A stretch of 64,000 nucleotides of DNA from Pseudoduganella dura (GTDB taxonomy: Bacteria; Pseudomonadota; Gammaproteobacteria; Burkholderiales; Burkholderiaceae_D). Of the stretch, positions 26,331-58,262 are shown piece by piece. The notes under the pieces are model-generated. The model was not told the origin of the DNA and made no database searches. It saw nothing but the letters and a program-made list of their open reading frames with translations. Location of the stretch: assembly GCF_009727155.1 (NCBI RefSeq), contig NZ_WNWM01000002.1, positions 5,828,001-5,892,000 of the forward strand, read 5' to 3'. A program made the position numbers and the translations under genes. How positions within the stretch are numbered: the stretch's first letter is position 1; the number at the start of each line of letters is the position of its first letter.

Positions 26331-29327
26331 GTGAGCACTCAGCGTCTCTTTCGTTCCATACTGCTCATCTGCCTGTTCTTGAGCCACGCGACTGCCTGGC
26401 CCGCTCCACCGGCGCCTTTGCTCTCGGATTTCACGCATACGGCTTGGAAACGCCTGCAGCACGCACCGGTCGACGTGTTGAAGATCACCCAGACCACCGA
26501 TGGCTGGATGTGGGTGGCCACGGCAACAGGCCTGTTTCGTTTCGACGGCATGCGTTTCGAGCGCGTCGACAGCGTGTATGGGGAACGCCTTGATTCCAGC
26601 AATGTGATCGGCCTGGTGGCCGATCCCCGCGAAGGCGTGTGGGTGGGTTATCGGCTCGGCGGGGTGACGCTGCTGCGCCCGGGAAGCAGCCGAAAATTCG
26701 GTGAGGCGGAGGGGCTTCCCGTCGGCGGCGTCATTCATATCGAGGCGGTTGCCGACGGCTCGGTATGGGTCGGTACGCGCGACGGTGTTGCATGGCTGGC
26801 GCCGGGTGCGAACCGCTTCAAGGTGTTGGGCAACGAAGTGGGCTTGCCGGAAAAGTTCGTCTACCAGATCCTGATCGCAAAAGATGGTACGCAATGGATC
26901 GGTTCCTTGCAGGGCCTGTTTTTCCGCAAGCCGGGCCAGCAGCGCTTTACGCAGGCATGGCCAAGAGTCCAGTTGCTGGCGATCGTCGAGGCACCCGACG
27001 GCACGATCTGGGCCAGGGATTCGAAGTACCGTTATTTCAAGGTGCAGACGACCGCTCCGGCCGGGGGCCGTATCCTCGCGCCGGACTTTCCCGGCATGGG
27101 CATGCGCTTCGGTACCGACGGGACGATGTGGGTCCTGCATCCGGATGGCGTGGAGCGGCGTTTCGGCAGCGCGGGTATCGGCTATCCGCATCAGCGGCTC
27201 ACGCAAGCTGCGGGCATGAGCGGACCACAGGCGCAGAGCTTCTTCGAGGATCGCGAGGGAGACATCTGGATCGGCACGGCGACCGGGATCGATCGCCTGC
27301 GCCGCAACCGGCTCACCCCGGTCGTGTTCGACAAACCGCTGGAAGAGCCCGGGATCGCACTGGGACCGCGTGGCTCGGTCCTCATCGGTGATCGTGCCAA
27401 CGGCGCCATCTACCGCCAGACCGATCGGCAGCGCGACAGGATCCGCGCGGAAGGCTCGATCACGGCGAGCTATCGCGCGCCGGACGATACCGCGTTCTTC
27501 GGAACCGATCACGGCATCTATGAGCTTGGCCGCGACGGCAGGTTATCGGTCACGCCGGCGCCCGAGGAGACACGGGGGTTCTATCCCCAGGCGATGATCC
27601 GTGATGGCAACGGCATTCTGTGGGTGTCGTATTCGAGCGGCCCGTTATACCGCCTGGCCGGCGCGCCCTGGACACGCGCCGACGAGGTGGCGAACCATGC
27701 GCGTGCGCTGACGCTGGCGATCGCCAGCGATAACAAGGGCGCGCTCTGGTTTGCGCATCCCAACAATGCGGTAACCATTACCGACAGCCGGGGGCGGCCC
27801 ATGCGCCGGCTCGATACGGCGGCGGGACTGGACCTCGGCCCCGTATTGCAGATCGTGCCGGACCAGGATGTGATGTGGCTAAGCGGTGAGCGGGGCGTGA
27901 TGCTGCATCGCGAAGGGCGAATTGTCGCGTTGCGCGGACGTGGCAAGGAAAGCTTCAGGGGCGTGTCCGGCCTGGTGCGGACACCGGAGGGCGACCTGTG
28001 GATGCATGGCGCCGACGGGGTCTTTCACATCGTCGCGGCGGAGCTGACGGAGTGGCTGCGCAGACCCGATTACCTGCCATCGTTCGAACGGTTCGATGCG
28101 CAGGACGGCCTGGTGGGACATGCGATGCAGATGCGCCCCATTCCATCGCTTGTCCGCGCCGATGACGGCACGCTCTGGTTCATCACCAGCAGCGCCGCGT
28201 TCACGCTCGACCCCGGGAACATTCCACGCAACCGCATCGCGCCGCCGGTGCTGATACGCAGCGTCTCCAGCGCCGGAAGCAAGGTGCCCGTGAACGCCGG
28301 CGTCGCTCGCCTGCAAGAAGGTGCCACCGACCTGCACATCGAATTCACCGCCCTGAGTCTGAAGATGCCGGAACGGACGCGGTTTCGCTACCGGTTGACG
28401 GGAGTCGATCCCGACTGGCAGGAACCCAATGAGCGACGGGAAGCGTTCTACACCAACGTCAAGCCCGGGACCTACCGTTTCGAGGTCGGCGCGGCCAATG
28501 AGGATAATGTCTGGCATCCCGATCTCGCGGCCGTGGAAATCCGGTTGCCGCCGACGTTCGTGCAAACCGTCTGGTTCAAGCTGCTGCTCGCGACCTTTGC
28601 CGTGCTGTTGTTGTATGGAGGGCACGTGCCGCGCCTGCGTGTCGTGACGCAGCAGATTCAGGGGCGTTTGGCCGAGCGATCGAGGATCGCCCGCTCGCTT
28701 CACGACACCTTGCTGCAGAGCGTGCAGGGCCTCATTCTGGCGTTCGGGTCGCATTACCATACAATGCCCAGGGAGGCTGCCGGCCGCGAGCGCCTGCAGA
28801 ATGCCTTGAAGCTGGCCGAGCAGTTGCTGGTCGAGGGGCGCAACGAGATCATGGATCTGCGCGTCCCGGCGACCAGCAGCACGCTCTTCGACGTCCTGTC
28901 CGAATTCGGCCACACCTTGACTGCGATGGGTTCGCACACGTTCAAGCCGCGCCTGACCGGCACGCCACGCCCTTTGAAAGCGGGCATCTATGAGGACATC
29001 TACGCGATCGGCAGGGAGGCCCTGTTCAATGCCGCCCGTTACGCCGAGGCGGACCTGATCACGCTGCAGGTCGACTATACCCGCCAGGAGTTCCATCTGA
29101 CGGTGAGGGACAATGGGCGTGGATTTTCCAGGAACAGGACGGCAGACGATCGGGAAGAAGGGCACTGGGGCATACAAGGTATCCTGGAACGTGCAAAGCT
29201 CATCGGCGCGGACCTTCATGTCACCAGCGAGACGGATCGTGGAACGACGATATCCCTGCGTATCAATAAAGTGCTCGCTTACGAGACCCGCGCAACGGTT
29301 CGCCAGGGCAGGCACGAGCATGCCTGA
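26331..29327 (+). CDS. Sensor histidine kinase with periplasmic beta-propeller (Reg_prop/Y_Y_Y)
   Basis: This 998-residue membrane kinase has a signal sequence (about residues 1-25). Two-component-regulator propeller repeats (TTDGWMWVATATGLFRFDG, DGSVWVGTRDGVAWL and others) occupy about residues 30-640. A Y_Y_Y domain follows (FRYRLTGVDPDWQE...YTNVKPGTYRFEV), then a membrane helix (FKLLLATFAVLLLYGG). The cytoplasmic end is a HisKA_3 domain with the phospho-acceptor His in ARSLHDTLLQSVQGL and a HATPase_c domain (VRDNGRGFS...HWGIQGILERA). It belongs to the HPK7/NarX-like kinases that pair with NarL-type regulators. The partner follows after 87 bp. The start is GTG. A second, paralogous kinase lies at 34213-37167. 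Confidence 0.93.
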   Translation: MSTQRLFRSILLICLFLSHATAWPAPPAPLLSDFTHTAWKRLQHAPVDVLKITQTTDGWMWVATATGLFRFDGMRFERVDSVYGERLDSSNVIGLVADPREGVWVGYRLGGVTLLRPGSSRKFGEAEGLPVGGVIHIEAVADGSVWVGTRDGVAWLAPGANRFKVLGNEVGLPEKFVYQILIAKDGTQWIGSLQGLFFRKPGQQRFTQAWPRVQLLAIVEAPDGTIWARDSKYRYFKVQTTAPAGGRILAPDFPGMGMRFGTDGTMWVLHPDGVERRFGSAGIGYPHQRLTQAAGMSGPQAQSFFEDREGDIWIGTATGIDRLRRNRLTPVVFDKPLEEPGIALGPRGSVLIGDRANGAIYRQTDRQRDRIRAEGSITASYRAPDDTAFFGTDHGIYELGRDGRLSVTPAPEETRGFYPQAMIRDGNGILWVSYSSGPLYRLAGAPWTRADEVANHARALTLAIASDNKGALWFAHPNNAVTITDSRGRPMRRLDTAAGLDLGPVLQIVPDQDVMWLSGERGVMLHREGRIVALRGRGKESFRGVSGLVRTPEGDLWMHGADGVFHIVAAELTEWLRRPDYLPSFERFDAQDGLVGHAMQMRPIPSLVRADDGTLWFITSSAAFTLDPGNIPRNRIAPPVLIRSVSSAGSKVPVNAGVARLQEGATDLHIEFTALSLKMPERTRFRYRLTGVDPDWQEPNERREAFYTNVKPGTYRFEVGAANEDNVWHPDLAAVEIRLPPTFVQTVWFKLLLATFAVLLLYGGHVPRLRVVTQQIQGRLAERSRIARSLHDTLLQSVQGLILAFGSHYHTMPREAAGRERLQNALKLAEQLLVEGRNEIMDLRVPATSSTLFDVLSEFGHTLTAMGSHTFKPRLTGTPRPLKAGIYEDIYAIGREALFNAARYAEADLITLQVDYTRQEFHLTVRDNGRGFSRNRTADDREEGHWGIQGILERAKLIGADLHVTSETDRGTTISLRINKVLAYETRATVRQGRHEHA

Positions 29328-29414
29328 TTGCCCTGGCGCCTGGTCGCCGCCTCCGGTGCAATGAACGGTAACCCTGCTTCGAACGCTGACGAAACAACTG
29401 ATGGACGGTCCGCC

Positions 29415-30056
29415 ATGAACGAAAAAACTTCACATCGAATACGCGTTCTCCTTGCGGACGACCATCACCTCATGCGGGAAGGGGTCCGCTACATGCTGGA
29501 CAGCGCACCGGACATACAGCTGGTCGCCAGCGTGGGCGACGGTGCCTCGGCTGTCGAAGCGTTCAAGCAGACGATCCCGGACGTGACCCTGATGGACTTG
29601 CGCATGCCCGGCGGCGACGGCTTCTCGGCAATTGCGAGCATTCGACGCCACTCGCCATCGGCAAGGATCGTTGTACTCAGCACCTATGACGGCGACGCGC
29701 TGATGAAGCAGGCACGCAAGGCAGGTGCATCGGCCTATCTGCTCAAGAGCATGCTGCTGGAAAACATGCTTGGCGTGATTCGCTCGGTGCATGCGGGTCT
29801 TCAGTTCTGGCCACCGGAACTCGGAACGCACAACGGCACTTTCAAGGCAGATCTGACGCCGCGGGAATGCGACATCATTCGCCTGGTCGCCTGCGGCAGC
29901 TCGAACCGGGAAATCGCCCAGGAGCTGCGGATCGGGGAAGAAACGGTGAAAACGTACATGCGCAACATTTTGCCGAAACTGGGTGCCAACGATCGGGCGC
30001 ATGCGGTAGCGATCTGCATGCGTCGCGGTTATCTCGATCTTCTGGATTTGCCTTGA
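29415..30056 (+). CDS. NarL/LuxR-family response regulator (partner of first kinase)
   Basis: This 213-residue regulator has an N-terminal receiver domain (VLLADDHHLMREGV, phospho-acceptor Asp in DVTLMDLRMPGGDG, conserved Lys in AYLLKSM). A C-terminal LuxR-type helix-turn-helix follows (LTPRECDIIRLVACGSSNREIAQEL...VKTYMRNILPKLGANDRAHA). The ATG at 29415 is preferred over an in-frame TTG at 29328, because the family begins a few residues before IRVLLADDH. It lies downstream of the propeller kinase on the same strand and converges with the hydrolase gene at 30133. Confidence 0.92.
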   Translation: MNEKTSHRIRVLLADDHHLMREGVRYMLDSAPDIQLVASVGDGASAVEAFKQTIPDVTLMDLRMPGGDGFSAIASIRRHSPSARIVVLSTYDGDALMKQARKAGASAYLLKSMLLENMLGVIRSVHAGLQFWPPELGTHNGTFKADLTPRECDIIRLVACGSSNREIAQELRIGEETVKTYMRNILPKLGANDRAHAVAICMRRGYLDLLDLP

Positions 30057-34212: not shown

Positions 34213-37167
34213 GTGCTCGGCTATTGCCGCGCAGGCCTGGCCTGCTGGCTTGTTCTGCTCTGTGTCGCGCTGCCCCGGGGTTGCCTGGCGCTGGACGCTT
34301 TCACACCGGTCATCGACCTGCATCACACCAGCTGGAGCACGCGCGACGGTGCGCCCGAGTCGATCATTTCGATCACACAAACCGCGGATGGCTGGTTATG
34401 GCTGGGCGGCGCGGCCGGATTGTTCCGCTTCGACGGCACCCGGTTCGAACCGTTCGTGCCCGCGAATGCCGCATTGCCGACCAAATACGTCAGCATCGTC
34501 AACGCGGCGCCGGACGGCGGGCTGTGGGTGGGTTACCGCACCGGAGGGGCCAGCTATCTGCGGCAGGGGCTGATACGTAATTACGGCGTACGGGACGGAC
34601 TGCCGAACCGCACGGTATGGGGGCTGGAACAGGATGGTACTGGCCGCATGTGGGCCGCGACGGTGGTCGGCCTGTATTACCTCGAACGCGGCCGCTGGCA
34701 CAAGCCTGCGAGCTCATGGCAACTGCCGGACGGCGCTTACAAGACACTGATGCGGGACCGGTCCGGCATCCTGTGGGCGCAGGGAGACGCGGGCGTCTGC
34801 CTGCTCAAGCCGGGCGCGGAAAGGTTTGACCGGGTGGCCGTCGAACGCGGTACCGGCGTGCTGTTCGAGCTCCCGGACGGCAATGTCGTCAGCTGGGATG
34901 CCATTCATGCCCGTCTCCGCCTGCTGACAGGCGCACGGCCCGGGGTGCGCTATGCGAAATGGGGCAGCCTGGGCGATCCCAGCAGCCTGCTGGTCGATCG
35001 GCGCGGAAACATGTGGGTCGGGCTGCTGGAGGGCCTTGAATATCGTACCGCCAGGGGCATCTCACGCGCGATGCCGCCGCAGGGCTTGAGCGGGCGGGCA
35101 GTGGGCGCGATCTTCGAAGATCGCGAGGGAAATATCTGGACGTCCACCTCCACCGGCATCGACCGGTTCCGTTCCAGGCGCGTGACCAGGCTGGATCTTC
35201 CCGCCCAGGCCATCGGTGGCGCGATGCTTGCCGATGACCGTGGCGGGGTCTGGGTCGGCGCCTATCATGTACTCGCCGATGAGGCAGGCAAGGTGAAGGT
35301 GGCACCCCGCCGCGAGATGGCCGGGGGCGGCTTGAAAAACCTGCTGACCAGCCTGGCCCATACCAGCGATGGCGCGATGTGGGGCGCCTCGCTGTGGACG
35401 TTGCGCAGGTTCCAGGGTTCGGACAGCCGGCCGGTGGCGCTGCCAGCCGCCCTCGAAGGGGCAATGATCAACGCCGTGCTGGAAGAGCGTGACGGCAGCG
35501 TGCTGGTGGCGCTCGACCGCGAGGGCCTGTATCGCCGCACGATGGCGGGGCAATGGGAAATGGCGGGGCCGCAGGTCGAAGTCAATGTCATGAGCCGCTC
35601 GGACGCCACCGGGCTGTGGACCGGATTTCATCCAGGGCTCGTGGCACAGGCACAAGGCCGGACCTGGCGCACCTACGGTCCGGCCGAAGGGCTGACGCTG
35701 GGCATGGTCATGGCGCTGCACCCGCACGGCCGGCACCTGTGGGCGGGGGGCGAGAGAGGGGTGGCATTTTTTGCGGCAGACCGGTTTACCCGGCTCATCG
35801 GCATCGATGGCGAGACGTTCCATGGCGTCTCCGGCATCGTCGAACTGGAAAATGGCGACCTGTGGCTGAACGCCTTTGCCGCCCTGTTCCACGTCCCGGC
35901 CGCCGAGGTACGCAAGTTCATCGCGTTGCCCGAATACCGTGTCCAGTATGAGCGGCTCGACCAGCTGGATGGACTGGAGGGCAGTGCGCCCTATCTGAGA
36001 CCGTCGCCTTCGCTGGTGTCCGCATCCGACGGGCGGCTCTGGATCGCCCGCTCCACCGGGGTATTCCGCCTGGATCCGGCCGCGCCGCCGCCCGCCACGC
36101 CGGGCCAGTCCGTCACGATCAAGGCGCTCGGCCTGCCCGGCGCTCCCAGCCTGCCGCACCCGCACCTGCGCTTCGCGCCGGGCAGCTCGGCGCTGCAGAT
36201 CGATTACACGCGCCTGGCGCTGGCCATGCCGGAACGCCTGCGCTTCCGGTATCGCCTCGAGGAAGTCGACGATGCCTGGCGGGATGCGGGGACCCGCCGC
36301 AGCGCCTACTACAGCAACCTCGCGCCGGGTGATTACCACTTCAGTGTCGCGGCGACGGACTACGACGGCAAGTGGTCGGGCACGCCTGCCACGGTGCGGT
36401 TTTCGATCGCACCGAAGGCAACCCAGACCTGGTGGTTCAGGGCGCTGTGCGGGCTCGTGGTGCTCTCGCTGGCAGTGGTCGCCTATCGACTGCGGATTGC
36501 CCGCCTGGGCAGGCAGATGGCGGCCCGCTTGCACGAACGCATCAACGAACGCGAACGCATCGCCCGCGAGCTGCACGACACCCTGCTGCAGTCCGTGCAG
36601 GGGCTGGTGTTCCACGTGCATGCGGCGGTATTGAAACTCCCGGCCGGAACGGCCGCGCGGCTGCAGATCGAAAGCGCACTGCGGCGTGCCGACGAGGTGC
36701 TCAGCGAGGGGCGCAGCCGGATTTGCGAGTTGCGCGGGGAGGACGTCGGCAAGCTCGGTTTCGGGGACGCGGTGCTGGCCGCGGCGGCGCGACTGCAGCA
36801 AGGCGACGGCTGTCCCGTGCGCCTGGCGATATCCGGCGACGTTCGCCAGCTCGAGGCATTGATCCACAGGGAAGCGCTGGCGATCGTTACCGAGGCGCTG
36901 GCCAACGCATGCCTGCATGCGAGGGCTGGCGCGATCGCCATCGAACTTCATTACGGCAGGCGCGAATTCCGCTGTATTCTCTCGGACGACGGCATCGGCA
37001 TCTCCGCCACGGTCCTGCATGACGGCGGCCGCGAGAACCACTGGGGCATGCGCGGGATGTACGAGTGCGCCGCCAGGATCGATGCCAGGTTGGCAGTGCG
37101 CAGCAGCGAAGGGTCCGGCACCACGTGGCAGCTGGACGTTCCCGCCGCATTGGCATACGCCAGGTAG
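34213..37167 (+). CDS. Second sensor histidine kinase with periplasmic beta-propeller
   Basis: This 984-residue kinase has the same layout as the one at 26331: signal sequence, Reg_prop repeats (TADGWLWLGGAAGLFRFDG, DGGLWVGYRTGGASYL), Y_Y_Y domain (FRYRLEEVDDAWRDAG...YSNLAPGDYHFSV) and membrane helix (WFRALCGLVVLSLAVVAYRL). HisKA_3 (ARELHDTLLQSVQGLVFHV) and HATPase_c (LSDDGIGIS...HWGMRGMYECA) complete it. The shared phrases show a paralogue pair. The start is GTG. A regulator gene follows after 45 bp. Confidence 0.93.
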   Translation: MLGYCRAGLACWLVLLCVALPRGCLALDAFTPVIDLHHTSWSTRDGAPESIISITQTADGWLWLGGAAGLFRFDGTRFEPFVPANAALPTKYVSIVNAAPDGGLWVGYRTGGASYLRQGLIRNYGVRDGLPNRTVWGLEQDGTGRMWAATVVGLYYLERGRWHKPASSWQLPDGAYKTLMRDRSGILWAQGDAGVCLLKPGAERFDRVAVERGTGVLFELPDGNVVSWDAIHARLRLLTGARPGVRYAKWGSLGDPSSLLVDRRGNMWVGLLEGLEYRTARGISRAMPPQGLSGRAVGAIFEDREGNIWTSTSTGIDRFRSRRVTRLDLPAQAIGGAMLADDRGGVWVGAYHVLADEAGKVKVAPRREMAGGGLKNLLTSLAHTSDGAMWGASLWTLRRFQGSDSRPVALPAALEGAMINAVLEERDGSVLVALDREGLYRRTMAGQWEMAGPQVEVNVMSRSDATGLWTGFHPGLVAQAQGRTWRTYGPAEGLTLGMVMALHPHGRHLWAGGERGVAFFAADRFTRLIGIDGETFHGVSGIVELENGDLWLNAFAALFHVPAAEVRKFIALPEYRVQYERLDQLDGLEGSAPYLRPSPSLVSASDGRLWIARSTGVFRLDPAAPPPATPGQSVTIKALGLPGAPSLPHPHLRFAPGSSALQIDYTRLALAMPERLRFRYRLEEVDDAWRDAGTRRSAYYSNLAPGDYHFSVAATDYDGKWSGTPATVRFSIAPKATQTWWFRALCGLVVLSLAVVAYRLRIARLGRQMAARLHERINERERIARELHDTLLQSVQGLVFHVHAAVLKLPAGTAARLQIESALRRADEVLSEGRSRICELRGEDVGKLGFGDAVLAAAARLQQGDGCPVRLAISGDVRQLEALIHREALAIVTEALANACLHARAGAIAIELHYGRREFRCILSDDGIGISATVLHDGGRENHWGMRGMYECAARIDARLAVRSSEGSGTTWQLDVPAALAYAR

Positions 37168-37212
37168 TGAATACGCCGCGCCGCCGGTGCCGCGCAAAGG
37201 AGAACTCTAGTC

Positions 37213-37839
37213 ATGGAGAGCGACCACATCAGCGTCATGATCGCCGACGATCATCCCCTGCTGCGCAGCGGGATTACGGCGGTGTTGACGGCCAACCCCA
37301 GGTTCTCGGTGGTGTGCCAGGCGGAAGATGGCATCAGCGCCGTCGAGCTGCATCGCCGCTGGCGCCCCGATGTCACCCTGATGGATTTGCAGATGCCGGG
37401 AATGAACGGCATCGAGGCGACGCGCACGATCCGCCAACTCGACCCCGAGGCCCGCGTGGTCATCCTGACGACGTTCGCCGGCGACGTGCAGGTGACGCGT
37501 GCGCTGAAGGCCGGTGCGGTGGGCTACCTGCTGAAGAACACGGCACCCGAGGCCCTGGGCGACTGCATCGTCTCCGTCCACGCCGGCCGGCGGGCGTTGC
37601 CGCCGGTCGTGGCAGCCAGCCTGGTGGACAGCTTCCAGCTCGACGCGTTGAGCAAGCGCGAGGTCGAAGTGCTGCGCCTGGTCAGCGGTGGCAATTCGAA
37701 CCAGCGCGTGGCGGCCCAGCTGGGCTTGCGCGAGGATACGATCAAGGCCCATATGAAGGCGATCCTGCAGAAGCTCGATGCGCGCGACCGTACCCATGCC
37801 GTGATGATCGCGATACGGCGCGGGTATTGGGAAAACTGA
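37213..37839 (+). CDS. NarL/LuxR-family response regulator (partner of second kinase)
   Basis: This 208-residue regulator has a receiver domain (VMIADDHPLLRSGI, Asp in DVTLMDLQMPGMNG, Lys in GYLLKNTA). The LuxR-type helix-turn-helix is LSKREVEVLRLVSGGNSNQRVAAQL...IKAHMKAILQKLDARDRTHA. AAGGAG precedes the ATG. It is paralogous to the regulator at 29415, keeping the DVTLMDL phrase. The stop codon falls inside a 12-bp tandem repeat. Confidence 0.92.
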   Translation: MESDHISVMIADDHPLLRSGITAVLTANPRFSVVCQAEDGISAVELHRRWRPDVTLMDLQMPGMNGIEATRTIRQLDPEARVVILTTFAGDVQVTRALKAGAVGYLLKNTAPEALGDCIVSVHAGRRALPPVVAASLVDSFQLDALSKREVEVLRLVSGGNSNQRVAAQLGLREDTIKAHMKAILQKLDARDRTHAVMIAIRRGYWEN

Positions 37840-37914: not shown

Positions 37915-38856
37915 TTACCGGATGAACGCCAGCAGGGCAGGGATCGTCCGGTCGGTCGCTTCTTCCATCAGCCAGTGGCCGGACCCTTGCAAGACCTGGC
38001 CGTCGACGTTCTCCGCCACCAGTTTCACCTGGTTGACGAGAAAATCGCTGCCGGACTTTTCGCCGGCCAGCACGAGGACGGGCATCGTCAGCTTCGTCTT
38101 GCCCAGCTCGGCGAACTGCTCGGCATCCCTGGGAAACGCCTTGAAGTACTCGAAGCCCGCATGCACGCCGCCGGGCTGTGCATATGCCGCGGCGTACAGC
38201 TTGCGGTCCCCTTCCGGAATCGAGCGTTTCGGGTCGGCCGCGAAATCGTTCCAGAAGTGCTCGAAGTAGATCCGTTCGCGGCCTTGCACGAGGCGCTCCG
38301 GCGTCGTGCCGTAGAAGTGGAAGTGCCACAGGTCGCGCAGCAGGAACATGTCCTTCCAGTTGCCGATGCCGGGCAGGAAAGCGTCCATCAGGGCCACCTT
38401 GCGGGTGTCGGCCGGGTACTGCGCGGCATACGCATAGGCGACCATCATGCCGATGTCGTGGCCAACGACGACAGCCGGTTCGTTCGTCACGCCTTTCACG
38501 AGATCGTGGATATCCTTCGCCAAGTTCGTCTTTTCGTAGCCGCCCGCCGCCTTGGCCGAGGCGCCGGTGCCGCGCAGGTCGGGCACGATCACGGTGTGGC
38601 TTTGCGCCAGCCGGGCCATGATGGGCGTCCACATGTGGCCCGTCTGCGTGTAGCCGTGCAGCAGCACGACGGGCGTTCCCTTGCCGCCGATGCGGTAGTG
38701 GATGGTCGTGCCGTTGACCTGCGCGGTCTTGCCGGCGAACCCGGGCGGATTGCCGGCAGGAGCCGCGCTGGCCTGCACGGCCACGGCCAGGAGGCCGGCG
38801 AAGCACCATTGAAACAGGCGCCGCGCGATCGTGTGGGGAATTCTTGCTGTGCTCAT
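37915..38856 (-). CDS. Exported alpha/beta hydrolase, epoxide hydrolase/dehalogenase-like
   Basis: This 313-residue protein has a signal peptide (about residues 1-32, ending AVQASAAPA). Motifs are VVLLHGYTQTGHMW, PDLRGTGAS, the nucleophile Asp in VVGHDIGMMVAYAYA and the C-terminal His in LQGSGHWLMEE. As in the cytosolic relative at 32134, the nucleophile is Asp, which fits epoxide hydrolases or haloalkane dehalogenases, but here the enzyme is secreted. It is convergent with the second kinase/regulator pair. Confidence 0.85.
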   Translation of the reverse strand: MSTARIPHTIARRLFQWCFAGLLAVAVQASAAPAGNPPGFAGKTAQVNGTTIHYRIGGKGTPVVLLHGYTQTGHMWTPIMARLAQSHTVIVPDLRGTGASAKAAGGYEKTNLAKDIHDLVKGVTNEPAVVVGHDIGMMVAYAYAAQYPADTRKVALMDAFLPGIGNWKDMFLLRDLWHFHFYGTTPERLVQGRERIYFEHFWNDFAADPKRSIPEGDRKLYAAAYAQPGGVHAGFEYFKAFPRDAEQFAELGKTKLTMPVLVLAGEKSGSDFLVNQVKLVAENVDGQVLQGSGHWLMEEATDRTIPALLAFIR

Positions 38857-39159
38857 GGTTCTGCTCCTGGTGTAGGGGGAGCCACCAGCTTAGGATGCAA
38901 TGCCCACGGTTCGCATGCCCTCCGGGGGGTATCCGTAGTCTTTCGAAAGGAGGAGACGATATCGCACTAAATTGAAGCGGAGCCTATTAGCAAGTTGCAT
39001 CTCTATAGCATGTCCCTGCGGTCATGCCGCCGTGCAGCCCTGGGTCGGCCCTTCTAATTGTTGCAAACGTGCAGCAACCAAAAAGGCCAATAACTAATAA
39101 AATACTTGTGGCAAAAATTTCAATGTAGGATTTACCTTTTCCTCAATGACACATGTGCG
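38857..39159. other. Left border of the low-GC island, no gene
   Basis: About 300 bp between the hydrolase start and the AAA-ATPase gene. GC drops sharply after roughly 38960. It contains the left copy of a 10-bp direct repeat (38961-38970) and a CTTTCGAAAG palindrome (38940-38949). No integrase or transposase remnant is visible. Confidence 0.55.
38961..38970. repeat. Left copy of 10-bp direct repeat ATCGCACTAA
   Basis: Identical to 45415-45424. The pair brackets exactly the two lower-GC genes and could be a target-site or att-like duplication, though chance is not excluded. Confidence 0.45.
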
Positions 39160-41388
39160 ATGATTGACACACTCGAAATTGACCAAGTGGCAATTTATGC
39201 CAGTCGCCAGACCATGTCTAGGCTCAAGGAGGTTAACTTTATCTTCGGAGCTAACGGCGCCGGCAAGACAACCATTGGGAGAGTGGTGGCAGATAGGTCC
39301 CTGCATGAGCACGAGAACTGTTCGATCGTCTGGCGCGATGGAATCGAGATGCAGCCGCTTGTGTACAACCGAGACTTCGTGGACGCAAACTTCAACACGG
39401 AAGGCAGTTTAAAGGGCATCTTCACCCTTGGCGAAAAGGACATCGCTAACGAGCTTGCAGTCAAGACGAAAAAGGAAGAGGTTGACCGCTACGCCAACGA
39501 AATTGCCCAGCGCACGAGCACTCTCGGCGACCCGGCACATAGATCTGGAAAATTCGGTGAGCTGGCCGCATTGGAGGCCGATTTTAAGGAGCGGTGCTGG
39601 GCGCAAAAACGCAAACACGATGAGGCCTTTTCGGAGGCGTTCACTGGCGTCAGAAATGACGCGGCCAAGTTCAAGGAGCGTCTTCTTCAACAACTCCAAT
39701 CAAACGTTGCCGATGCGCAGACACTTGAATACCTGACTAAGCGCGCGGCCACGGTGTTGGGCGTGAAGCCGCAGCTGCAGGCCAAACTCCCTACGTTGGA
39801 TTTCGCCGACATCGTCGCTTTGGAGGCAGCTCCTATCCTCATGAAAAGAGTAGTTGGCAAAGAGGACGTGGACATCGCCGAGATGATTTACCGGCTAGGA
39901 CACAGCGATTGGGTCAAAGCTGGACAAGCGCACTATGAAACCAGCGCCCCTAAGTGCCCGTTCTGCCAGCAGACGGCGCCTGAAGGGCTGACTGCAAGCC
40001 TTACGAGCTATTTCGACGAGACCTTTGAGCAGGACACCAAAGCAGTCGCGGACCTGCAGGCGACATACGGCCGCGAAGACAAGTCGCTTTTGTTGGCCTT
40101 GAATGCGATTAAGGAATCAACGTCAATTTTCTTGGACAAGGCAACGTTCATGCGCGAGCAGATCACGATCGAGGCCAAGCTTCGTACTAACTCCCTCATT
40201 TTAGCCAACAAGCGCAAAGAGCCAAGTGCGCCTCAAAAGCTTGAATCGCTCGCGGAACCATTGGCGCTAGTCCTTGACCTGGTCAAAGCGGCTAACACGA
40301 AAGTGGCGGAGCATAATCGCATTGTAGACAGCATTAGCGCAGAGAGGACGAAGCTTGTCGCACAAATATGGCGCTACATTCTCGACGACGTGAAAGTCGA
40401 TCTCGAGGTTTATCAGCGCAAAAAAGCAGGCCTTTCGGCAGCGATCGAAAGCCTGAAAAGCCAGATTAAAACAGCCGAGGGGGCCAAGGCGAGTGCGGAG
40501 CGCGAATTGCGCGAGCTTGAAAAAAAGATTTCCACTGTCCAGCCTACGGTCGACGCCATCAACGACCTGCTCAAATCGTTTGGGTTCAAGACGTTTGCGC
40601 TGGCGAAGGCTGGCGACCAACCCCATTATAAACTCGTGCGTGACGACGGAAAGGACGCGAGGCATTCTTTGAGCGAGGGCGAAAGGTCTTTCGTCACTTT
40701 TCTCTACTTTTACCACCTGATCAAGGGCAGCGACAACGATAGCGGCGCGGCGCGGGACCGCGTCGTCGTGTTCGACGATCCCGTGTCAAGCATGGATAGC
40801 GATGTGCTCTTCATTGTGAGCAGTCTCATTCGTGCGCTTTTCGACGATATGAAGAACGGTCAAGGCTACGTCAAGCAGGTGTTTGTCTTGACCCACAACG
40901 TCTATTTTCACAAGGAGGTTTGCTTCATGAGCCCTCAGCGCAAGGTCGGAGCGAAAGGCGACAAACGCGCCGAGCGCAATCTCGGCCGTAGCTACTGGGT
41001 CGTGCGCAAATCGCCGACCGGGCCGCTGCTCGAACGCTTTGACGATAATCCTATCAAGACATCATACGAGCTGCTGTGGGACGAGGTACGTAGGGACCAG
41101 CGGAATCCCTTGACGATCCAGAACACTATGAGGAGGATCTTGGAACACTACTTCAGGATTCTTGGCGGTGTAGACTTCGACGACCTCTGCGAGAAGTTTG
41201 ATGGCAGAGAAAAGCTGGTGTGCCGTTCGCTGCTTTCGTGGGTGAACGATGGCTCCCATTTCTCCCACGACGACGCGCACTTCGCGTTTGGCCCGAACGC
41301 AATTGACGACCAAGTGGCCATATTTAAAAAGATCTTCGAGCGGGCTGAGCATTTGCCGCATTACGAGATGATGATGGCTAAGAAGTGA
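39160..41388 (+). CDS. RloC-like AAA_13 ABC ATPase with zinc-hook motif, putative anticodon nuclease
   Basis: This 742-residue protein has a split ABC-ATPase. Walker A is GANGAGKTT (residues 30-38), then a long coiled coil (about 95-465) is interrupted by CPFC (Cys266, Cys269) like a zinc hook. The signature is LSEGERS (504-510), Walker B VVVFDDPVSS (535-544) and the H-loop LTHN (577-580). The C-terminus has RRILEHYF and WVNDGSHFSH, giving Arg658-x3-Glu662 and His700. This fits the Arg-Glu-His pattern reported for PrrC/RloC tRNA anticodon nucleases. RloC is an SMC-like phage-response tRNase of similar size. The ATG at 39160 is preferred over a TTG at 39106. The NACHT gene follows 82 bp later. 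Low GC and AT-rich codon use mark it as acquired. The nuclease role is inferred. Confidence 0.75.
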   Translation: MIDTLEIDQVAIYASRQTMSRLKEVNFIFGANGAGKTTIGRVVADRSLHEHENCSIVWRDGIEMQPLVYNRDFVDANFNTEGSLKGIFTLGEKDIANELAVKTKKEEVDRYANEIAQRTSTLGDPAHRSGKFGELAALEADFKERCWAQKRKHDEAFSEAFTGVRNDAAKFKERLLQQLQSNVADAQTLEYLTKRAATVLGVKPQLQAKLPTLDFADIVALEAAPILMKRVVGKEDVDIAEMIYRLGHSDWVKAGQAHYETSAPKCPFCQQTAPEGLTASLTSYFDETFEQDTKAVADLQATYGREDKSLLLALNAIKESTSIFLDKATFMREQITIEAKLRTNSLILANKRKEPSAPQKLESLAEPLALVLDLVKAANTKVAEHNRIVDSISAERTKLVAQIWRYILDDVKVDLEVYQRKKAGLSAAIESLKSQIKTAEGAKASAERELRELEKKISTVQPTVDAINDLLKSFGFKTFALAKAGDQPHYKLVRDDGKDARHSLSEGERSFVTFLYFYHLIKGSDNDSGAARDRVVVFDDPVSSMDSDVLFIVSSLIRALFDDMKNGQGYVKQVFVLTHNVYFHKEVCFMSPQRKVGAKGDKRAERNLGRSYWVVRKSPTGPLLERFDDNPIKTSYELLWDEVRRDQRNPLTIQNTMRRILEHYFRILGGVDFDDLCEKFDGREKLVCRSLLSWVNDGSHFSHDDAHFAFGPNAIDDQVAIFKKIFERAEHLPHYEMMMAKK

Positions 41389-41470
41389 AGTTCAGAGCCA
41401 CTGCACCTGCAGTCCAGCCAAGAAACCGTGATAGGCCTGGCGGACAGGATCGCGATTCGAAAGAGATGAA

Positions 41471-44400
41471 ATGATGGGTAGCGATAAGAGCGCAAAACGG
41501 ATGACGGGTGGCAGCGCTGCAGAACGCGGGCTAGATTTCCAAGCGCGAGTAAGTGCAATCGTAATGGCAAACCTGCTGACAGAACGGCCCATAGGCTGGC
41601 TTGAAGGGGTACTGGACGACACGCCGCTGGAGCTGCACGCTGAAACGGGCGGGCCTGGCGACGATGTACGCTTCTCGACTAAGGGCGGAAGGCATGTGGA
41701 ACTGCAGGCCAAGCGGGGGTTGCAACGTGGGGATGACCTCTGGTGCGCTCTGACGGATCTGTCAAAAGGCATTTCTGACGGCACGATCGACGCGGGGATC
41801 TTAGCTGTGTGCCCGAACAGTAGTGGCACGATCCGTGAAAACTTGGCTGAGGACATTGTGCGGCTGGGCACTGGGCGAGCTGACGGGCTGCGCGAGATTG
41901 GCGACGCTTGGGTGAGGTTGCTTTCGTCATTGTCCTTGGACGCGACCCTGGTATGCAGACACTTGCGTATCGTCGTCGTCAGCGCAGTTGATGGGAACCG
42001 TGAAGCGGAGGTCACGGCTAGCGAGCGCCTTAGCCGCGTCATCGAGGATCCGGGAACTGCGTGGCCGGTGCTTGTGGAGTATGGGCGACTTCTGATACGC
42101 AGGAGAGAACGGTCGAGACCAGAAGACATCTACCAAACCTTGTCGCTCGCCCACGTTAAGTTAAAGACGACCGAAGTTGATACGCGCGTGCAGTTAACCG
42201 CAGCAATGCACCAATGGCTGCGTCGAACCTACGCCAACATGACTGTCATCGGCGTACATAGCCAAGTTTCCTTCGATAAGTGTTGGATCGAGCTGGACGC
42301 ACAAGCGATGGACGAGGCCTCGACCGAACAGGAAGACCTTGACAAGGCGCTTCGCCGTTACCATGAATATGGTGGTGGCCGCAGCAGCGCATCTTCTTTC
42401 GATTCCGCGACCATCGCCCGTTTCGTCAGAAAATGCGTGGTCGTCGGCGGCCCCGGGATGGGCAAGTCTACGCTCCTCAAGAAGCTAGCCTTGGACTACT
42501 CAGCTGACGGATTTCTGACGCTCCTCGTGCGCCTGCCGCAGGTGGTTGCGCTTCTCATTCGCGAAGGGCGCCGCTTTGAGGAATGCTTAATGGAGGTCGC
42601 GCTCAGCGGCTCGGGCTTCCGAATACCAGTCGTTTCGCTGGAAGGGTCCGTCATCCTGTGCGATGCATTGGACGAGTGCGGGAGTCAGCAGCCGCTGGTG
42701 ACCGCTAAGTTGCACGCTTTCACTGTTGCACATCCACGCGCCCGCGTCGTGGTAACGAGTCGGCCCATCGGATATCGCCCAGGCGAACTGGCAGGATGGC
42801 GACACTATGAGCTTCAACCGCTGAACGACATGGCGGCCGAGAAGGCAGTCTCCAAAGTAATCGAGGCGATTCCGTTTTCTGATGGAGCGCTACGGTCACG
42901 CGCTACGAAGCAAGCCATCGCCCAACTTGGCGCGAAGACCATCAAGGGAGCTGCGGCAAGGAGTCCTCTGATGATTACGCTGGTTGCTGCACTTTCGATC
43001 AAGGGCGTTGATCCAGGGCTTGGCAAGGGGACCATGTATCGCAATTTTTTTCAGTTGCTGCAGAATCATCCGCCGACCCGTCTTACCGAACGATCACCAA
43101 GCGAGCCGGAAAGGAACAGATTTTTGGATATGCTCGGCTGGTGTCTTCTATCACAAGGCAATGAACCGGCCGAACGGATCCTTTCGCAATGCGCGCGTTG
43201 GTGGAGTGAAGAGACGGGGCAATCCGCCTTCGTTAGCGAAACAAAAATTGCTGAGTGCCTGGAATATTGGGAGTGTCTAGGCGTCGTCGAACGCGTACGT
43301 ACACACACACTGGAGGCGATCACTTTCGTTCACAAGACCTTCGGGGAGTTTGCGGCCGCGCGACACATCTCCAAGGGCTTTCTTGAAGTGCAACGGGAGA
43401 ACATTGCGCGCGCGATCCAGACACCAGACTGGAAGGAAACCTTATCGTTCGCGAGCCACCTCGGCCTTACGTCGCTGATCCTCAAAGTCTGGACCGAGCT
43501 GGCGGAGAGTGGTGAAACCAAGGCTATCAGCAGCCTCGACGACGCGGTCGAGTTAGTGATCCAGGCGGGAATGCCGCTGGCGAGCGATGCCCTTGCGAGC
43601 TTTGCGCAATGTTGTTGGCGCGCCGTTGAGAATACAGCGTCGCGAGTGCGTTACGTCGCAGGAGAAGCTCTTTGCCTGGTGTCCAAAGACCATTGGAGCG
43701 TAATAGAGGAAGCGACGCTGGCAAGGCTGGAGTCATCCGACGGGTGGAGCCGACTAGTCGCTTGGGCATCCTTATGCGTCAGCAACGACCAAAAAATGGC
43801 GATTACCACGCTCACTGAAGCAATACCGAGGCTTGTCGATTCTCGACCAACCGATTCTCACCTAGGCGGCTTCTCCCTTCAGCCGAGCGGGAACGGCGTG
43901 TGGCAGCACTTAGTGCTTGGTGCGGCTCGGCGCGTCCTCATCGCTCTACCAGATCCAAAGGCGGTGCAGATACTCAATGAGCTCATTGGCGATGCTAAAG
44001 GCCTGAGTGTAAGTACCGTCGGCAAGTTGAGAACTCTGTTCAAGCATGCCGGACTGGAGCTTAGCAGATTGTTAGACGAAACATTTTCAGGAACCATGAC
44101 TCACTGGGCGTCGGACCGCGAAGCCTTGAACCGTGAGGCCGCCTATTTGCTTGAGCTCATCGACGATCCTTTGATCGCGAGCGATGAAGCAGACCTCTGC
44201 GAACCAAGTCTCAGCCTTGAACTTGGCGCGTGCATGACGGTAATTTGCTATCGAGAAATGCCACTCGAGGACAACCCTAGTAGTACATCGTCGGCAAAGA
44301 TAACTGCGGCTAGACGTCGCGTCATCCACGCGCTCGCTCGGAGCGCTGGCCTAGACCACGCCCAGCTAGTAAGACAGGCACGTTCGATGAAGAGAATGGT

Positions 44401-45388
44401 CCTCGACGACGTAGAGAACGAAAGATTTGGGCTATTCGACCTTCTGAGGGTCGACGCGGAGGTTGACCAAGACCATTCCCTTGTCGACAGCGCATTTATC
44501 CATGAACTGGAGGACCTTGTTCTTGGCCCAAGCGAGCTTTTTGCGTGGAATGCGGCTCAAGTGCTATATACAACGCACAACTGTCGGGAATTTCCAGATG
44601 CAGTCAAACGCCTAATCAGCCGCGGGCAGGGCAAGTCGCTCCGGATATCCGCCGCACTGGCTAGTCATTTGCCGGATGGAGGGGGACAACGACTTATGCT
44701 GGATCGCCTACTATACGGTGAAATTACTCCAGGCTGCCGCTATTTATACCAAAGTCTGACGGCCCCCTACGGTGCCGATCACCTTGAAGTTGTTCGAAGG
44801 GGCCTCACCGGGAACTCCGTCCATGCTGCCACGGCAGCTGCCGAATTGAGTAAAGAGTTTTGCTTGGACAGCGCATTGGCAAACGAGTTGAGGAACTATT
44901 TTGAGCAATGGAAGGGCAAAGAAGAGCCGTATTCTAAAGGCGGTCGTGTCGTCCCGGAGAGCCCTCGCGACGAGCTAGCTAAGATTCTGGCTCCAGCGTT
45001 CGCGCAGGACCACGACTTCCTCATTGCACTTCTGGCCGACGATCGATCCAGCGTACAAGGTGCGGCACGTGAACATGCTCTAGCTGAAGCGGCGAGCTCA
45101 GCTCTCTTGCGTTCAAGACTTTTGGAAGGCGTCGAAATGAAACGGTTGCCGGCAGGGCTTCTCCGCACAGCTGTTCTCAGAGGCCTATATATGGGGGACG
45201 AGGCACCCGCAATCGTCCGCTTTCTCTACAGTGAAGATGCTCGCTTGCGGTACGCGGCGTTGCCAATCCTTGACGTGAAATATCTCAAGCAAGAGCAGGT
45301 GCGTGATGAGTCCAAGCGACTTCTGACGGACAACGAGTTGGACATTAGGGAGGGAGCAAGCCGAGCTCTGCATTGCCTGACGTTGTAA
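41471..45388 (+). CDS. NACHT/STAND NTPase with N-terminal PD-(D/E)XK-like nuclease domain, Avs-type defence candidate
   Basis: This 1305-residue protein has three parts. Residues about 12-175 resemble Cap4/DUF4297-type effector nucleases: GGSAAERGLDFQ, then GPGDDVRF (Asp64/65) and HVELQAKRG (Gln79-x-Lys81), a D...(E/Q)xK pattern. A NACHT-type NTPase follows with Walker A GGPGMGKST (326-334), Walker B VILCDALDE (394-402) and VVVTSRPIGY. The last 750 residues are alpha-helical, HEAT/TPR-like, and would serve as sensor. This nuclease-STAND-repeat order is that of Avs anti-phage proteins, which oligomerise on phage proteins and degrade DNA. It is in the same low-GC island and strand as the RloC-like gene. 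I do not recognise a named subfamily. No frameshift is seen. Confidence 0.75.
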   Translation: MMGSDKSAKRMTGGSAAERGLDFQARVSAIVMANLLTERPIGWLEGVLDDTPLELHAETGGPGDDVRFSTKGGRHVELQAKRGLQRGDDLWCALTDLSKGISDGTIDAGILAVCPNSSGTIRENLAEDIVRLGTGRADGLREIGDAWVRLLSSLSLDATLVCRHLRIVVVSAVDGNREAEVTASERLSRVIEDPGTAWPVLVEYGRLLIRRRERSRPEDIYQTLSLAHVKLKTTEVDTRVQLTAAMHQWLRRTYANMTVIGVHSQVSFDKCWIELDAQAMDEASTEQEDLDKALRRYHEYGGGRSSASSFDSATIARFVRKCVVVGGPGMGKSTLLKKLALDYSADGFLTLLVRLPQVVALLIREGRRFEECLMEVALSGSGFRIPVVSLEGSVILCDALDECGSQQPLVTAKLHAFTVAHPRARVVVTSRPIGYRPGELAGWRHYELQPLNDMAAEKAVSKVIEAIPFSDGALRSRATKQAIAQLGAKTIKGAAARSPLMITLVAALSIKGVDPGLGKGTMYRNFFQLLQNHPPTRLTERSPSEPERNRFLDMLGWCLLSQGNEPAERILSQCARWWSEETGQSAFVSETKIAECLEYWECLGVVERVRTHTLEAITFVHKTFGEFAAARHISKGFLEVQRENIARAIQTPDWKETLSFASHLGLTSLILKVWTELAESGETKAISSLDDAVELVIQAGMPLASDALASFAQCCWRAVENTASRVRYVAGEALCLVSKDHWSVIEEATLARLESSDGWSRLVAWASLCVSNDQKMAITTLTEAIPRLVDSRPTDSHLGGFSLQPSGNGVWQHLVLGAARRVLIALPDPKAVQILNELIGDAKGLSVSTVGKLRTLFKHAGLELSRLLDETFSGTMTHWASDREALNREAAYLLELIDDPLIASDEADLCEPSLSLELGACMTVICYREMPLEDNPSSTSSAKITAARRRVIHALARSAGLDHAQLVRQARSMKRMVLDDVENERFGLFDLLRVDAEVDQDHSLVDSAFIHELEDLVLGPSELFAWNAAQVLYTTHNCREFPDAVKRLISRGQGKSLRISAALASHLPDGGGQRLMLDRLLYGEITPGCRYLYQSLTAPYGADHLEVVRRGLTGNSVHAATAAAELSKEFCLDSALANELRNYFEQWKGKEEPYSKGGRVVPESPRDELAKILAPAFAQDHDFLIALLADDRSSVQGAAREHALAEAASSALLRSRLLEGVEMKRLPAGLLRTAVLRGLYMGDEAPAIVRFLYSEDARLRYAALPILDVKYLKQEQVRDESKRLLTDNELDIREGASRALHCLTL

Positions 45389-45414
45389 GGCTTCCTCGTA
45401 GGAGTTATTCTCAA

Positions 45415-45424
45415 ATCGCACTAA
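45415..45424. repeat. Right copy of 10-bp direct repeat ATCGCACTAA
   Basis: Starts 27 bp after the NACHT gene stop and is identical to 38961-38970. Confidence 0.45.
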
Positions 45425-45445
45425 CAGCGCTCCCTTCTATGTAGT

Positions 45446-45480
45446 AAAACTAAGCCCATGACCCTCGGGGCCTAGTTTTT
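45446..45480. terminator. Bidirectional intrinsic terminator after the defence island
   Basis: AAAACTAAGCCC pairs with GGGGCCTAGTTTT (one mismatch), with an A-tract on the left and TTTTTT on the right. It ends the island transcript and insulates the TonB receptor gene. Confidence 0.8.
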
Positions 45481-45705
45481 TGCCTATAGAAGACATGTGA
45501 ACGTTATCCCGAAGCATACCTTTCATGACTATGACACGGCCAGTAAAGCATAGCTTGCCATGGAGTCATGTATTGCGGGGCGTTACTCAGGTGGTATTTA
45601 ACACAACACGCAACAAAAAGAAATGTGCTGTACCAAAACTACATCACGCATCATATTTCCGTTTCTTAAATTCTCAGCATTGACATACCATCGTTGTCAC
45701 CGGCA

Positions 45706-56322: not shown

Positions 56323-57558
56323 TCAGTACCAGTCTGCGGGGAATAACATGCCCGATGTGACGTCCATGTATTTGTACAGCGGCACGCCTGTCCAGTCGGT
56401 AATATTGAAAACCCGATTCGAATCCGCCAGCTTTCTTACCTCAACCGTGGAGACTGTCAGGGGGGTCTTGGGTCTGCATACACTCGGCGGGACCGAAGGA
56501 CGAACAAAATAGACAGCGCTTTCCGTCGTGGTGGACGCGTTGGTGACTCGTCTTGCCGTGACCGGTTTCCCATTGCCGTTTCCCTGAACCAGCAATGCGG
56601 TCTCGACACCGATACCTATGCCGCGCGCGGTCGCATTGCCGCTGGACGATGCGGGAAGTACCCCGCCGATGCAGCCGAAGGTCCCGCCCGGTGTTGCGGT
56701 CGGCGCCACGATCCTCGACAGGAATGCGATAAAGCGGCCCATCCGGTCGCGACTGTCGAAATGCGAATCGAAAATCATGCTTGCCAATGCCGGCGGTGCG
56801 ATGAAGCCGCCCTGCAAGCTCAACGGGTTTGGATCGAAAGTTATATCCTTGTAATAAGGATCGAGCATCGAATCTTCCGACGTGGCGGATTTGTACAGGG
56901 CGGAGTAATCGAACTGACCGAGCACTGCCAGGCCGGCGCTGGTCCCGCCGACTGGCACGTTTCTCTTCATCAAGGCCAGTAAAGTCTGTTCAAGCGCCGT
57001 GCCTTTCCAGAACCGGATGTAATGGCTCTGGTCGCCACCTGCGATGAACACGACATTGGCCCTGGCCAGGATGGCATTGACGGCTTTATTGTTGGCCGCT
57101 TTTACACTTGGAATCACGAGTGTTTCCACCGACGTGAGGCCCAGCGAGGCGCCGCCCACCCACAAATCGGCGATCGTGCTGGATGTCGACAACGTCTCGT
57201 CGCTGTAGAAAATATAGGGATTATAGGCCTCCGTTCCGGTTGCCCGGATGACGACGAATCGCCCTCCCGTACCTGGTCCGATGCCGGCCCGCTGGATCAG
57301 CCATCGAAAAGCGGGATCCACGTCGGGGCCACCACCCATCAGTACGAACGATGGCGAGGGAAGGGTGGTTGGTGCGGTTACCGTGGCATTGACATCGCCC
57401 GTTGAAAAATAAGAATAGAGCGGTATCGGTTGCGCCGGTTCGAATGTTGCCTCCGCAAATACCGGAGCTGCAAGAAAAGCCGATGCCACGGCAAGCACGG
57501 CCTTTGCATGGTATGAAAAAAGCCGGGTCAGCAACAGGTAGAAAAATCGTGCATTCAT
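56323..57558 (-). CDS. Secreted cyanophycinase-family serine peptidase (S51)
   Basis: This 411-residue protein has an N-terminal signal/anchor (FYLLLTRLFSYHAKAVLAVASAFLAAPVFA). The peptidase S51 core follows: FVLMGGGPDVDPAFRWLIQ, VVIRATGTEAYNPYI, VFIAGGDQSHYIRFW and the nucleophile elbow VGGTSAGLAVLG. This family hydrolyses cyanophycin (multi-L-arginyl-poly-L-aspartate) to beta-Asp-Arg or acts on isoaspartyl peptides. Export indicates action outside the cytosol. The ATG at 57558 has GGAG upstream. The longer frame to 57771 overlaps the PEP-CTERM gene and is rejected. The TonB receptor downstream might import a product. Confidence 0.87.
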   Translation of the reverse strand: MNARFFYLLLTRLFSYHAKAVLAVASAFLAAPVFAEATFEPAQPIPLYSYFSTGDVNATVTAPTTLPSPSFVLMGGGPDVDPAFRWLIQRAGIGPGTGGRFVVIRATGTEAYNPYIFYSDETLSTSSTIADLWVGGASLGLTSVETLVIPSVKAANNKAVNAILARANVVFIAGGDQSHYIRFWKGTALEQTLLALMKRNVPVGGTSAGLAVLGQFDYSALYKSATSEDSMLDPYYKDITFDPNPLSLQGGFIAPPALASMIFDSHFDSRDRMGRFIAFLSRIVAPTATPGGTFGCIGGVLPASSSGNATARGIGIGVETALLVQGNGNGKPVTARRVTNASTTTESAVYFVRPSVPPSVCRPKTPLTVSTVEVRKLADSNRVFNITDWTGVPLYKYMDVTSGMLFPADWY

Positions 57559-57635
57559 TTTCCAGGCTCCAGTAACGATCGCTTGATGATTGGCTATTCT
57601 TCGGGAATAACTGCTGGAGAAACCACGTCCGGCAA

Positions 57636-58262
57636 TCATGAAAATACCCGTTGTTGTGAACGGCGCGGCATGCTGGAGCTCGCCAAAAGGAGCAAACCGC
57701 CCAGCACCATCGCAATGGCAGGCGGCTCGGGCACTTGGGCAATGCCGAAAGTCAGCGTGCCGTGATTCCACATACCCTCGGGTTCATCGAAAGCGAGATC
57801 CTTGAAGCCATCGTGAAATTCGAGGCGCAGGATACCGTCGGCACCCACTGTAAAAACCTGTCCCAGTACGCGCAAATCCTGGAATCCGGCGTAATCCACC
57901 GTGCCGTCGAAATCGTCGCCATTACCGGGCGTAAAGGTAACTCCCCTGCCCAGGATATCGGTGAACGTAATTTTCATTTCGGACAGGTAGCTGCCGGCGT
58001 AAGCCGTGGCATTGACGTCCCACGCGAGACTCGTTATCGACGCTCCGGCCCCCACGTGGAAATCCTGGATAACATTACTCGCGGCGCCTCTCTCGTCATA
58101 ATTCGGGATGCCCGAAATATCCACCATTAGCTGGGACATTGCAGCTTGCTGGGCGGCCGGATAATCCGTGCCGACTGGCGCAGCTTGCGCCGTCCCAAAA
58201 ATTATTGCTGTACCGACCATCAAGAGAACAGGGGTGCGCCGCGCATAATGTGCGTTCTTCAT
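57636..58262 (-). CDS. PEP-CTERM sorting-domain protein
   Basis: This 208-residue exported protein has a signal peptide (PVLLMVGTAIIFGTAQAAP), a beta-sandwich-like body and the C-terminal PEP-CTERM anchor QVPEPPAIAMVLGGLLLLASS followed by MPRRSQQR. It should be processed by an exosortase encoded elsewhere. It lies 77 bp upstream of the cyanophycinase gene on the same strand and could be co-transcribed with it. The function is unknown. Confidence 0.85.
   Translation of the reverse strand: MKNAHYARRTPVLLMVGTAIIFGTAQAAPVGTDYPAAQQAAMSQLMVDISGIPNYDERGAASNVIQDFHVGAGASITSLAWDVNATAYAGSYLSEMKITFTDILGRGVTFTPGNGDDFDGTVDYAGFQDLRVLGQVFTVGADGILRLEFHDGFKDLAFDEPEGMWNHGTLTFGIAQVPEPPAIAMVLGGLLLLASSSMPRRSQQRVFS

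Follow-up and report, generated by a model that had tools for sequence, protein, structure and literature searches.

Probably a small shared defence island: an RloC gene and a nuclease-NACHT gene in tandem in Pseudoduganella dura

The window, by which we mean the whole 64-kb stretch of Pseudoduganella dura DNA that was analyzed, carries two long plus-strand genes in tandem, an RloC-type gene (39160..41388) and, after an intergenic junction of 82 bp (41389..41470), a nuclease-NACHT STAND gene (41471..45388). We read this locus as a two-gene defence cassette whose two genes are autonomous, belong to known kinds, and have some shared history in close relatives, and we put the probability of this reading at roughly 0.7. 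By analogy with the families to which they belong, both genes are probably antiviral. The sequence-only reading knew of no system with this exact pair, and our search of the listings of open-licence papers likewise found none that describes an RloC and NACHT pair. Both genes nevertheless belong to known kinds, and co-occurrence does not make the pair a system; most likely the two genes make up a small shared defence island and not a two-part system of a new kind. The genes, their motifs, the predicted folds, and the gene neighborhoods are described below as observed.

Judged by its sequence, the first gene is an RloC, with every feature tested present. Its start was placed at the ATG at 39160, with M1 and I2 invariant across the family alignment, in place of the TTG at 39106 given in the mechanical list of open reading frames. 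The 742-residue product falls within the length range of RloC proteins (658-897 aa) and contains an AAA_13 match, ABC ATPase motifs with a predicted Rad50-like head fold, coiled coils with a zinc hook, and a C-terminal anticodon-nuclease region. The PDC-S06 model of PADLOC, which stands for a candidate family named in four papers, matches the protein over almost its full length. The zinc hook (C266-P-F-C269, 39955..39966) is the sole CxxC of the protein, lies within the coiled-coil insert that splits the ATPase, and is invariant in 40 aligned sequences, this one included; its cysteines fall between predicted helices 250-262 and 277-318, with the hook itself modelled at low confidence. The anticodon-nuclease signature R658-x3-E662-x37-H700 with S699 (41131..41259), also invariant in 40 aligned sequences including this one, obeys the RloC rule R-x3-E-x36-52-H, with S often preceding H, as given in the published description (PMC2610378). 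Zinc hook, triad, ATPase motifs, and length all fit, so the RloC-like identity first proposed from sequence is upheld. A PDB sequence search with this protein alone gave nothing useful, and the best hit of a profile search was a ribosomal protein at an E value of 0.009. The Geobacillus and Acinetobacter proteins (PMC2610378, PMC3874168) share the same size, split ABC ATPase, CxxC hook, and R-x3-E-x36-52-(S)H triad with the window's protein, whereas no restriction-modification gene was seen adjoining the gene in the window, the next gene downstream encoding a nuclease-NACHT protein.

The second gene encodes a nuclease-NACHT STAND protein of 1305 residues with an NLR-type NACHT module. Its N-terminal domain (41513..42154) is confidently predicted to adopt the Cap4/LmuA-like PD-(D/E)XK nuclease fold, and cutting of DNA would be expected from the family. 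The putative active site comprises D63, D64, and E76-x-Q78-x-K80, numbered from the Met at 41474; D63, D64, E76, and Q78 are invariant and K80 is conserved in at least 90%, which fits the N-terminal PD-(D/E)XK effector of bacterial NACHT (STAND) proteins. The NACHT NTPase module of such proteins is present as well (42173..43393), with Walker A GGPGMGKST, Walker B ILCDALDE, and a helical region after them; it scored 26.9 bits against PF05729 (cut-off, 26.7) and matched NLRC4 in a profile search with an E value of 1e-9. The C-terminal half (43394..45385), the presumed sensor, is perhaps HEAT-like, its match to HEAT_EZ (E value 0.0014, 19.6 bits) lying below the Pfam cut-off of 27. A PDB sequence search with the NACHT protein alone gave nothing useful, and none of the Pfam, NCBIfam, and PADLOC models searched spans its whole length. 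The nuclease-NACHT identity had also been named from the sequence, and it is borne out by the two predicted folds and by the invariant active-site pattern. Cap4 of CBASS, a nuclease with the PD-(D/E)XK fold, is combined with a SAVED domain, and the LmuA nuclease of Lamassu works with an SMC-type partner protein, whereas the nuclease of the window is joined to a NACHT module instead. Avs-type STAND sensors are larger (Avs3 has 2028 residues in structure 8dgc), while the window's protein is shorter and has an NLR-type NACHT module. Parallels are also seen in bNACHT25 and bNACHT32 of clade 6, which have an N-terminal PD-(D/E)XK DNase, a central NACHT, and a further C-terminal part (PMC12169576); in a comparison by domain description alone, the C-terminal half of the window's protein amounts to ∼660 residues.

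The two genes differ in composition from the DNA around them. Their GC contents are 0.539 (RloC) and 0.567 (NACHT) compared to 0.636 for the whole window, and their GC3 values are 0.674 and 0.608 compared to 0.815-0.881 in the measurements for five flanking genes. Of all 6.2-kb segments of the 64 kb, the six lowest in GC start at 38801-39801, so the low GC noted earlier for the two same-strand genes holds at that scale; the further statement that it is lower than everything around does not, as positions 58001-59000 are equally GC-poor (0.532). We consider the low-GC stretch probably foreign. The 82-bp gap between two long plus-strand reading frames was as described. Immediately downstream, a hairpin with A and T runs (45435..45490) has a folding energy of −18.2 kcal/mol (z of −3.4 relative to shuffles) and may be a bidirectional terminator. 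The hairpin, which the sequence-only reading had taken for a bidirectional terminator, is stable, but it is missing from a generic pattern scan for terminators, which listed eight terminator-like and three promoter-like sites in the region compared to 7.2 and 3.4 in shuffled sequences.

A perfect 10-mer does bracket the genes (38961..38970 and 45415..45424) and occurs just twice in the whole window, but we reject it as an island boundary. At least 10 shared bases were found between intergenic stretches of matching lengths in 10.5% of 2000 simulated pairs (P of ∼0.105), so that chance alone yields such a repeat about one time in 10. Moreover, in five genus relatives (13.5-14 kb fetched from each) similarity to the window starts at 45590-45627, beyond the right-hand copy of the 10-mer. 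The genes of the left flank were not found at that place in the five relatives except for one 60-base match, and the left-flank DNA gave just partial matches elsewhere in their genomes. An empty site was sought in the same five genomes and none was demonstrable, the right flank being common to them and the left flank not.

The distribution of the NACHT family argues against a dedicated two-gene system, which would be expected to keep its genes adjacent in most carriers. Thirty-one distinct NACHT loci extend 3 kb or more upstream of the gene, and none of them has RloC. These derive from 151 loci, of which 52 matched a 640-residue profile at E values up to 1e-5 (the profile searches covered closed frames with at least 60 residues); dropping eight matches under 150 bits left 44, of which 32 had the required upstream length, and removal of L091, a duplicate of L003, gave the 31. 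Twenty-six of them score above 300 bits (L035, L036, L037, L038, and L093 lie below), the frames of L036 and L037 are short (151 and 595 residues), and most are distant relatives at ∼25-37% identity. Across the 151 loci, 61 had RloC matches, 52 had NACHT matches, and three had both, namely the window's genome and Massilia soli twice. Among 392 family genomes, NACHT was detected in five (E values up to 1e-20; G188 matches at 30% identity and G363 by the nuclease domain alone) and RloC in 10 at the unequal cut-off of 1e-60 (G349 at 27% identity), and only the window's own genome appears in both lists. The proposal of a single module with layered action is not supported by these counts (0 of 31 loci; both genes in one of 392 genomes).

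The protein catalogue holds 268 relatives of the NACHT protein at E values up to 0.001, the window's own included. There was no match among 50,697 phage records, a pattern-based scan gave one viral-contig locus (37% identity), and five of 72,556 plasmid records had matches, one of which spans most of the query at 29%. A search of 399 genomes across the order (E values up to 1e-60) returned just the window's genome and that of M. soli (G011). A scan of genome contigs, partial since it rests on two short peptide patterns, gave 47 NACHT loci, four of them with at least 50% identity along the whole protein, own genome excluded. One of these four (L004) has 700 bases upstream, so the upstream region is readable in three: L002 (M. 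soli) has an RloC remnant, and L003 and L005 lack RloC within 10 kb.

The upstream neighbors of the NACHT gene also vary. No same-strand open reading frame of at least 100 aa ends within 100 bp upstream in 20 of the 31 loci; the other 11 have varied upstream same-strand frames, of which those in L003 and L009 were identified. The former, from Pseudoduganella guangdongensis (L003:6148-13945), has a Ppl-like ATPase gene, which we take to be TrlF-like, followed by a Schlafen-AlbA gene and, after 29 bp, the NACHT gene, so that here, too, a NACHT gene of this family has an SMC-type ATPase gene upstream. In the latter, from Eilatimonas milleporae (L009:6584-13966), 15 bp separate the NACHT gene from the end of a gene for a Mokosh-like helicase upstream. 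A viral contig (L049:5758-13912) has two nuclease-NACHT-like genes in tandem: the frame upstream of its NACHT gene, 1192 residues long, gives a weak LmuA-type match at the N terminus and narrowly misses the cut-off for NACHT.

RloC genes were likewise found in other company. Matches were present in 61 loci, 59 of them above 150 bits (duplicates and loci with ∼1.5 kb of flank included), and among those 59 a NACHT-family neighbor was seen only at the window's own locus. On named plasmids the neighbors include SbcCD, restriction genes of the PaeR7I and ISP types, and, immediately upstream, a type I restriction set. Nine large neighbors were picked by hand from the viral-contig loci and one genome; eight are restriction-modification proteins (HsdM, HsdR, or Eco57I-like) and the ninth had no Pfam match. 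The single NACHT neighbor among 59 loci and the eight of nine restriction-modification neighbors argue for the autonomy of RloC. A restriction partner acting in trans, as has been proposed for RloC, is possible for the window's protein; a search with the type I restriction N-terminal domain gave one match in this genome, ∼2.7 Mb away, which clears the cut-off only jointly with neighboring pieces.

Several relatives of the window's RloC gene are broken. The gene of G018 (L090:7495-9802) is 77-86% identical to that of the window, the matches falling in two frames that join near codon 530 (no NACHT-family match occurs in the 18 kb fetched for this locus), that of G040 contains a stop, and M. soli retains a remnant. 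Such decay would suit a reading in which the RloC of the window is itself degenerate, or serves DNA repair rather than defence, leaving the NACHT protein alone active; the window's copy, on the other hand, is full length with all signature residues in place, and we regard this reading as highly improbable.

M. soli also provides evidence for a shared history of the two genes. A 4.1-kb stretch of its DNA is 79% identical to the window from 41283 through a homologous junction and along the NACHT gene. A decayed RloC tail (L002:1188-1364), comprising 34 residues at 91% identity and reading beyond the old stop, lies directly upstream of an intact NACHT frame. No trace of RloC was found in the 1186 contig bases that precede the 4.1-kb stretch, and the M. 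soli genome is absent from the 10 RloC-positive family genomes. We infer from the remnant at this junction that an ancestor or donor carried the tandem, and that RloC was later lost and NACHT kept. In addition, P0002, which at 78% is the nearest relative of the NACHT protein, and P0123, the second-nearest of the RloC protein (83%), each come from a 6862-base metagenomic contig, probably one and the same, which is just long enough for the pair. This comparison is rough, with one longest contig per protein cluster: the longest contig reaches at least 6.25 kb for 48 of the 59 NACHT relatives P0002-P0060 (counted from the table), and among the 120 RloC matches listed, P0002 was by eye the only NACHT relative with a contig of equal size.

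The M. soli junction and the probable metagenomic pair show that the two genes were passed on together, by descent or by transfer, on at least one occasion; the tandem thus predates the window's strain and could have been retained for a reason. Given these two cases, the homologs cannot be said never to occur together elsewhere, the outcome that the sequence-only reading had named as refuting its module. The same two cases weigh against a distinctly unlikely explanation, that two mobile genes came to lie side by side by chance in a variable locus with no common function or expression, for which one may cite the stretch left of ∼45600, not found at this place in the five genus relatives, and the occurrence of either gene alone elsewhere. 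They also count against two autonomous genes, as do the distance of most of the 31 loci from the window's protein and the small number (three) of loci at 50% identity or above whose upstream DNA is readable. For the autonomy of NACHT speak the absence of RloC from all 31 loci, the 20 loci with no close upstream frame, and the intact NACHT gene beside a ruined RloC in M. soli. We conclude that the tandem is common to few relatives but dispensable, and that neither gene needs the other to persist.

The triggers and the cutting of tRNA and DNA are assigned here from what is known of the two families. According to the literature, the ATPase and zinc hook of RloC keep its anticodon nuclease silent and the activated protein cuts host tRNA (PMC2610378, PMC3710099); double-strand-break inducers activate it (PMC3874168). 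With two autonomous genes, the ATPase and zinc hook of the window's RloC would restrain its nuclease until DNA damage, such as that caused by phage or by restriction, activates it, whereupon cutting of host tRNA would stop translation. The NACHT protein would recognize an infection cue through its C-terminal half, its NACHT module would oligomerize, and the N-terminal PD-(D/E)XK domains would then assemble and degrade DNA.

These activities could also be coupled in a cascade, in which double-strand breaks, made by the NACHT protein once it has sensed infection, switch on the RloC anticodon nuclease next door. The response of RloC to break inducers (PMC3874168), the confidently predicted nuclease domain, the placement of the genes on one strand only 82 bp apart, and the M. 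soli junction with the probable metagenomic pair are consistent with this idea, as is the adjacency of other RloC genes to restriction-modification genes, which makes a DNA-cutting neighbor usual for the family. We nonetheless consider the cascade unlikely, given that no NACHT locus with 3 kb upstream kept RloC, that M. soli kept NACHT and lost RloC, that both genes occur in one of the 392 family genomes, and that RloC would sense breaks of any source.

A related and unlikely proposal is a relay in which the nuclease-NACHT sensor takes the place of the restriction enzymes found beside PrrC and many RloC genes, such that phage recognition would lead to breaks and the breaks to wobble-nucleotide excision by RloC. 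The relay is possible because the damage predicted for the NACHT protein is of the kind to which RloC responds, and reasonable because RloC habitually adjoins DNA-cutting systems; the NACHT neighborhoods do not favor it. If it were true, tRNA cutting would be a second kill step, perhaps beyond repair by phage tRNA repair. PrrC and the EcoprrI restriction system (PMC2610378, PMC3710099) likewise place a DNA-cutting enzyme beside an anticodon nuclease; in contrast, no restriction-modification genes were seen in the window, and nothing observed there points to one protein silencing the other.

The locus adds a clearly bounded Cap4-type nuclease-NACHT family, whose whole length falls outside the Pfam, NCBIfam, and PADLOC models searched, and a well-preserved RloC. 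Because RloC answers to DNA breaks and its neighbor is predicted to make them, the tandem suits a two-gene test of whether co-located defence genes are coupled via damage signals. If the two genes act separately, they would represent one more case of defence genes shuffled as cassettes.

Two other features of the window were noted by eye. A second low-GC stretch (56323-58843, 0.53-0.58 per kilobase) contains a peptidase-like gene and a gene for a predicted exported PEP-CTERM-like protein. Finally, two pairs of genes (26331-30056 and 34213-37839), each combining a large gene that resembles sensor kinases with one that resembles LuxR-type regulators, are similar in layout and start ∼8 kb apart.
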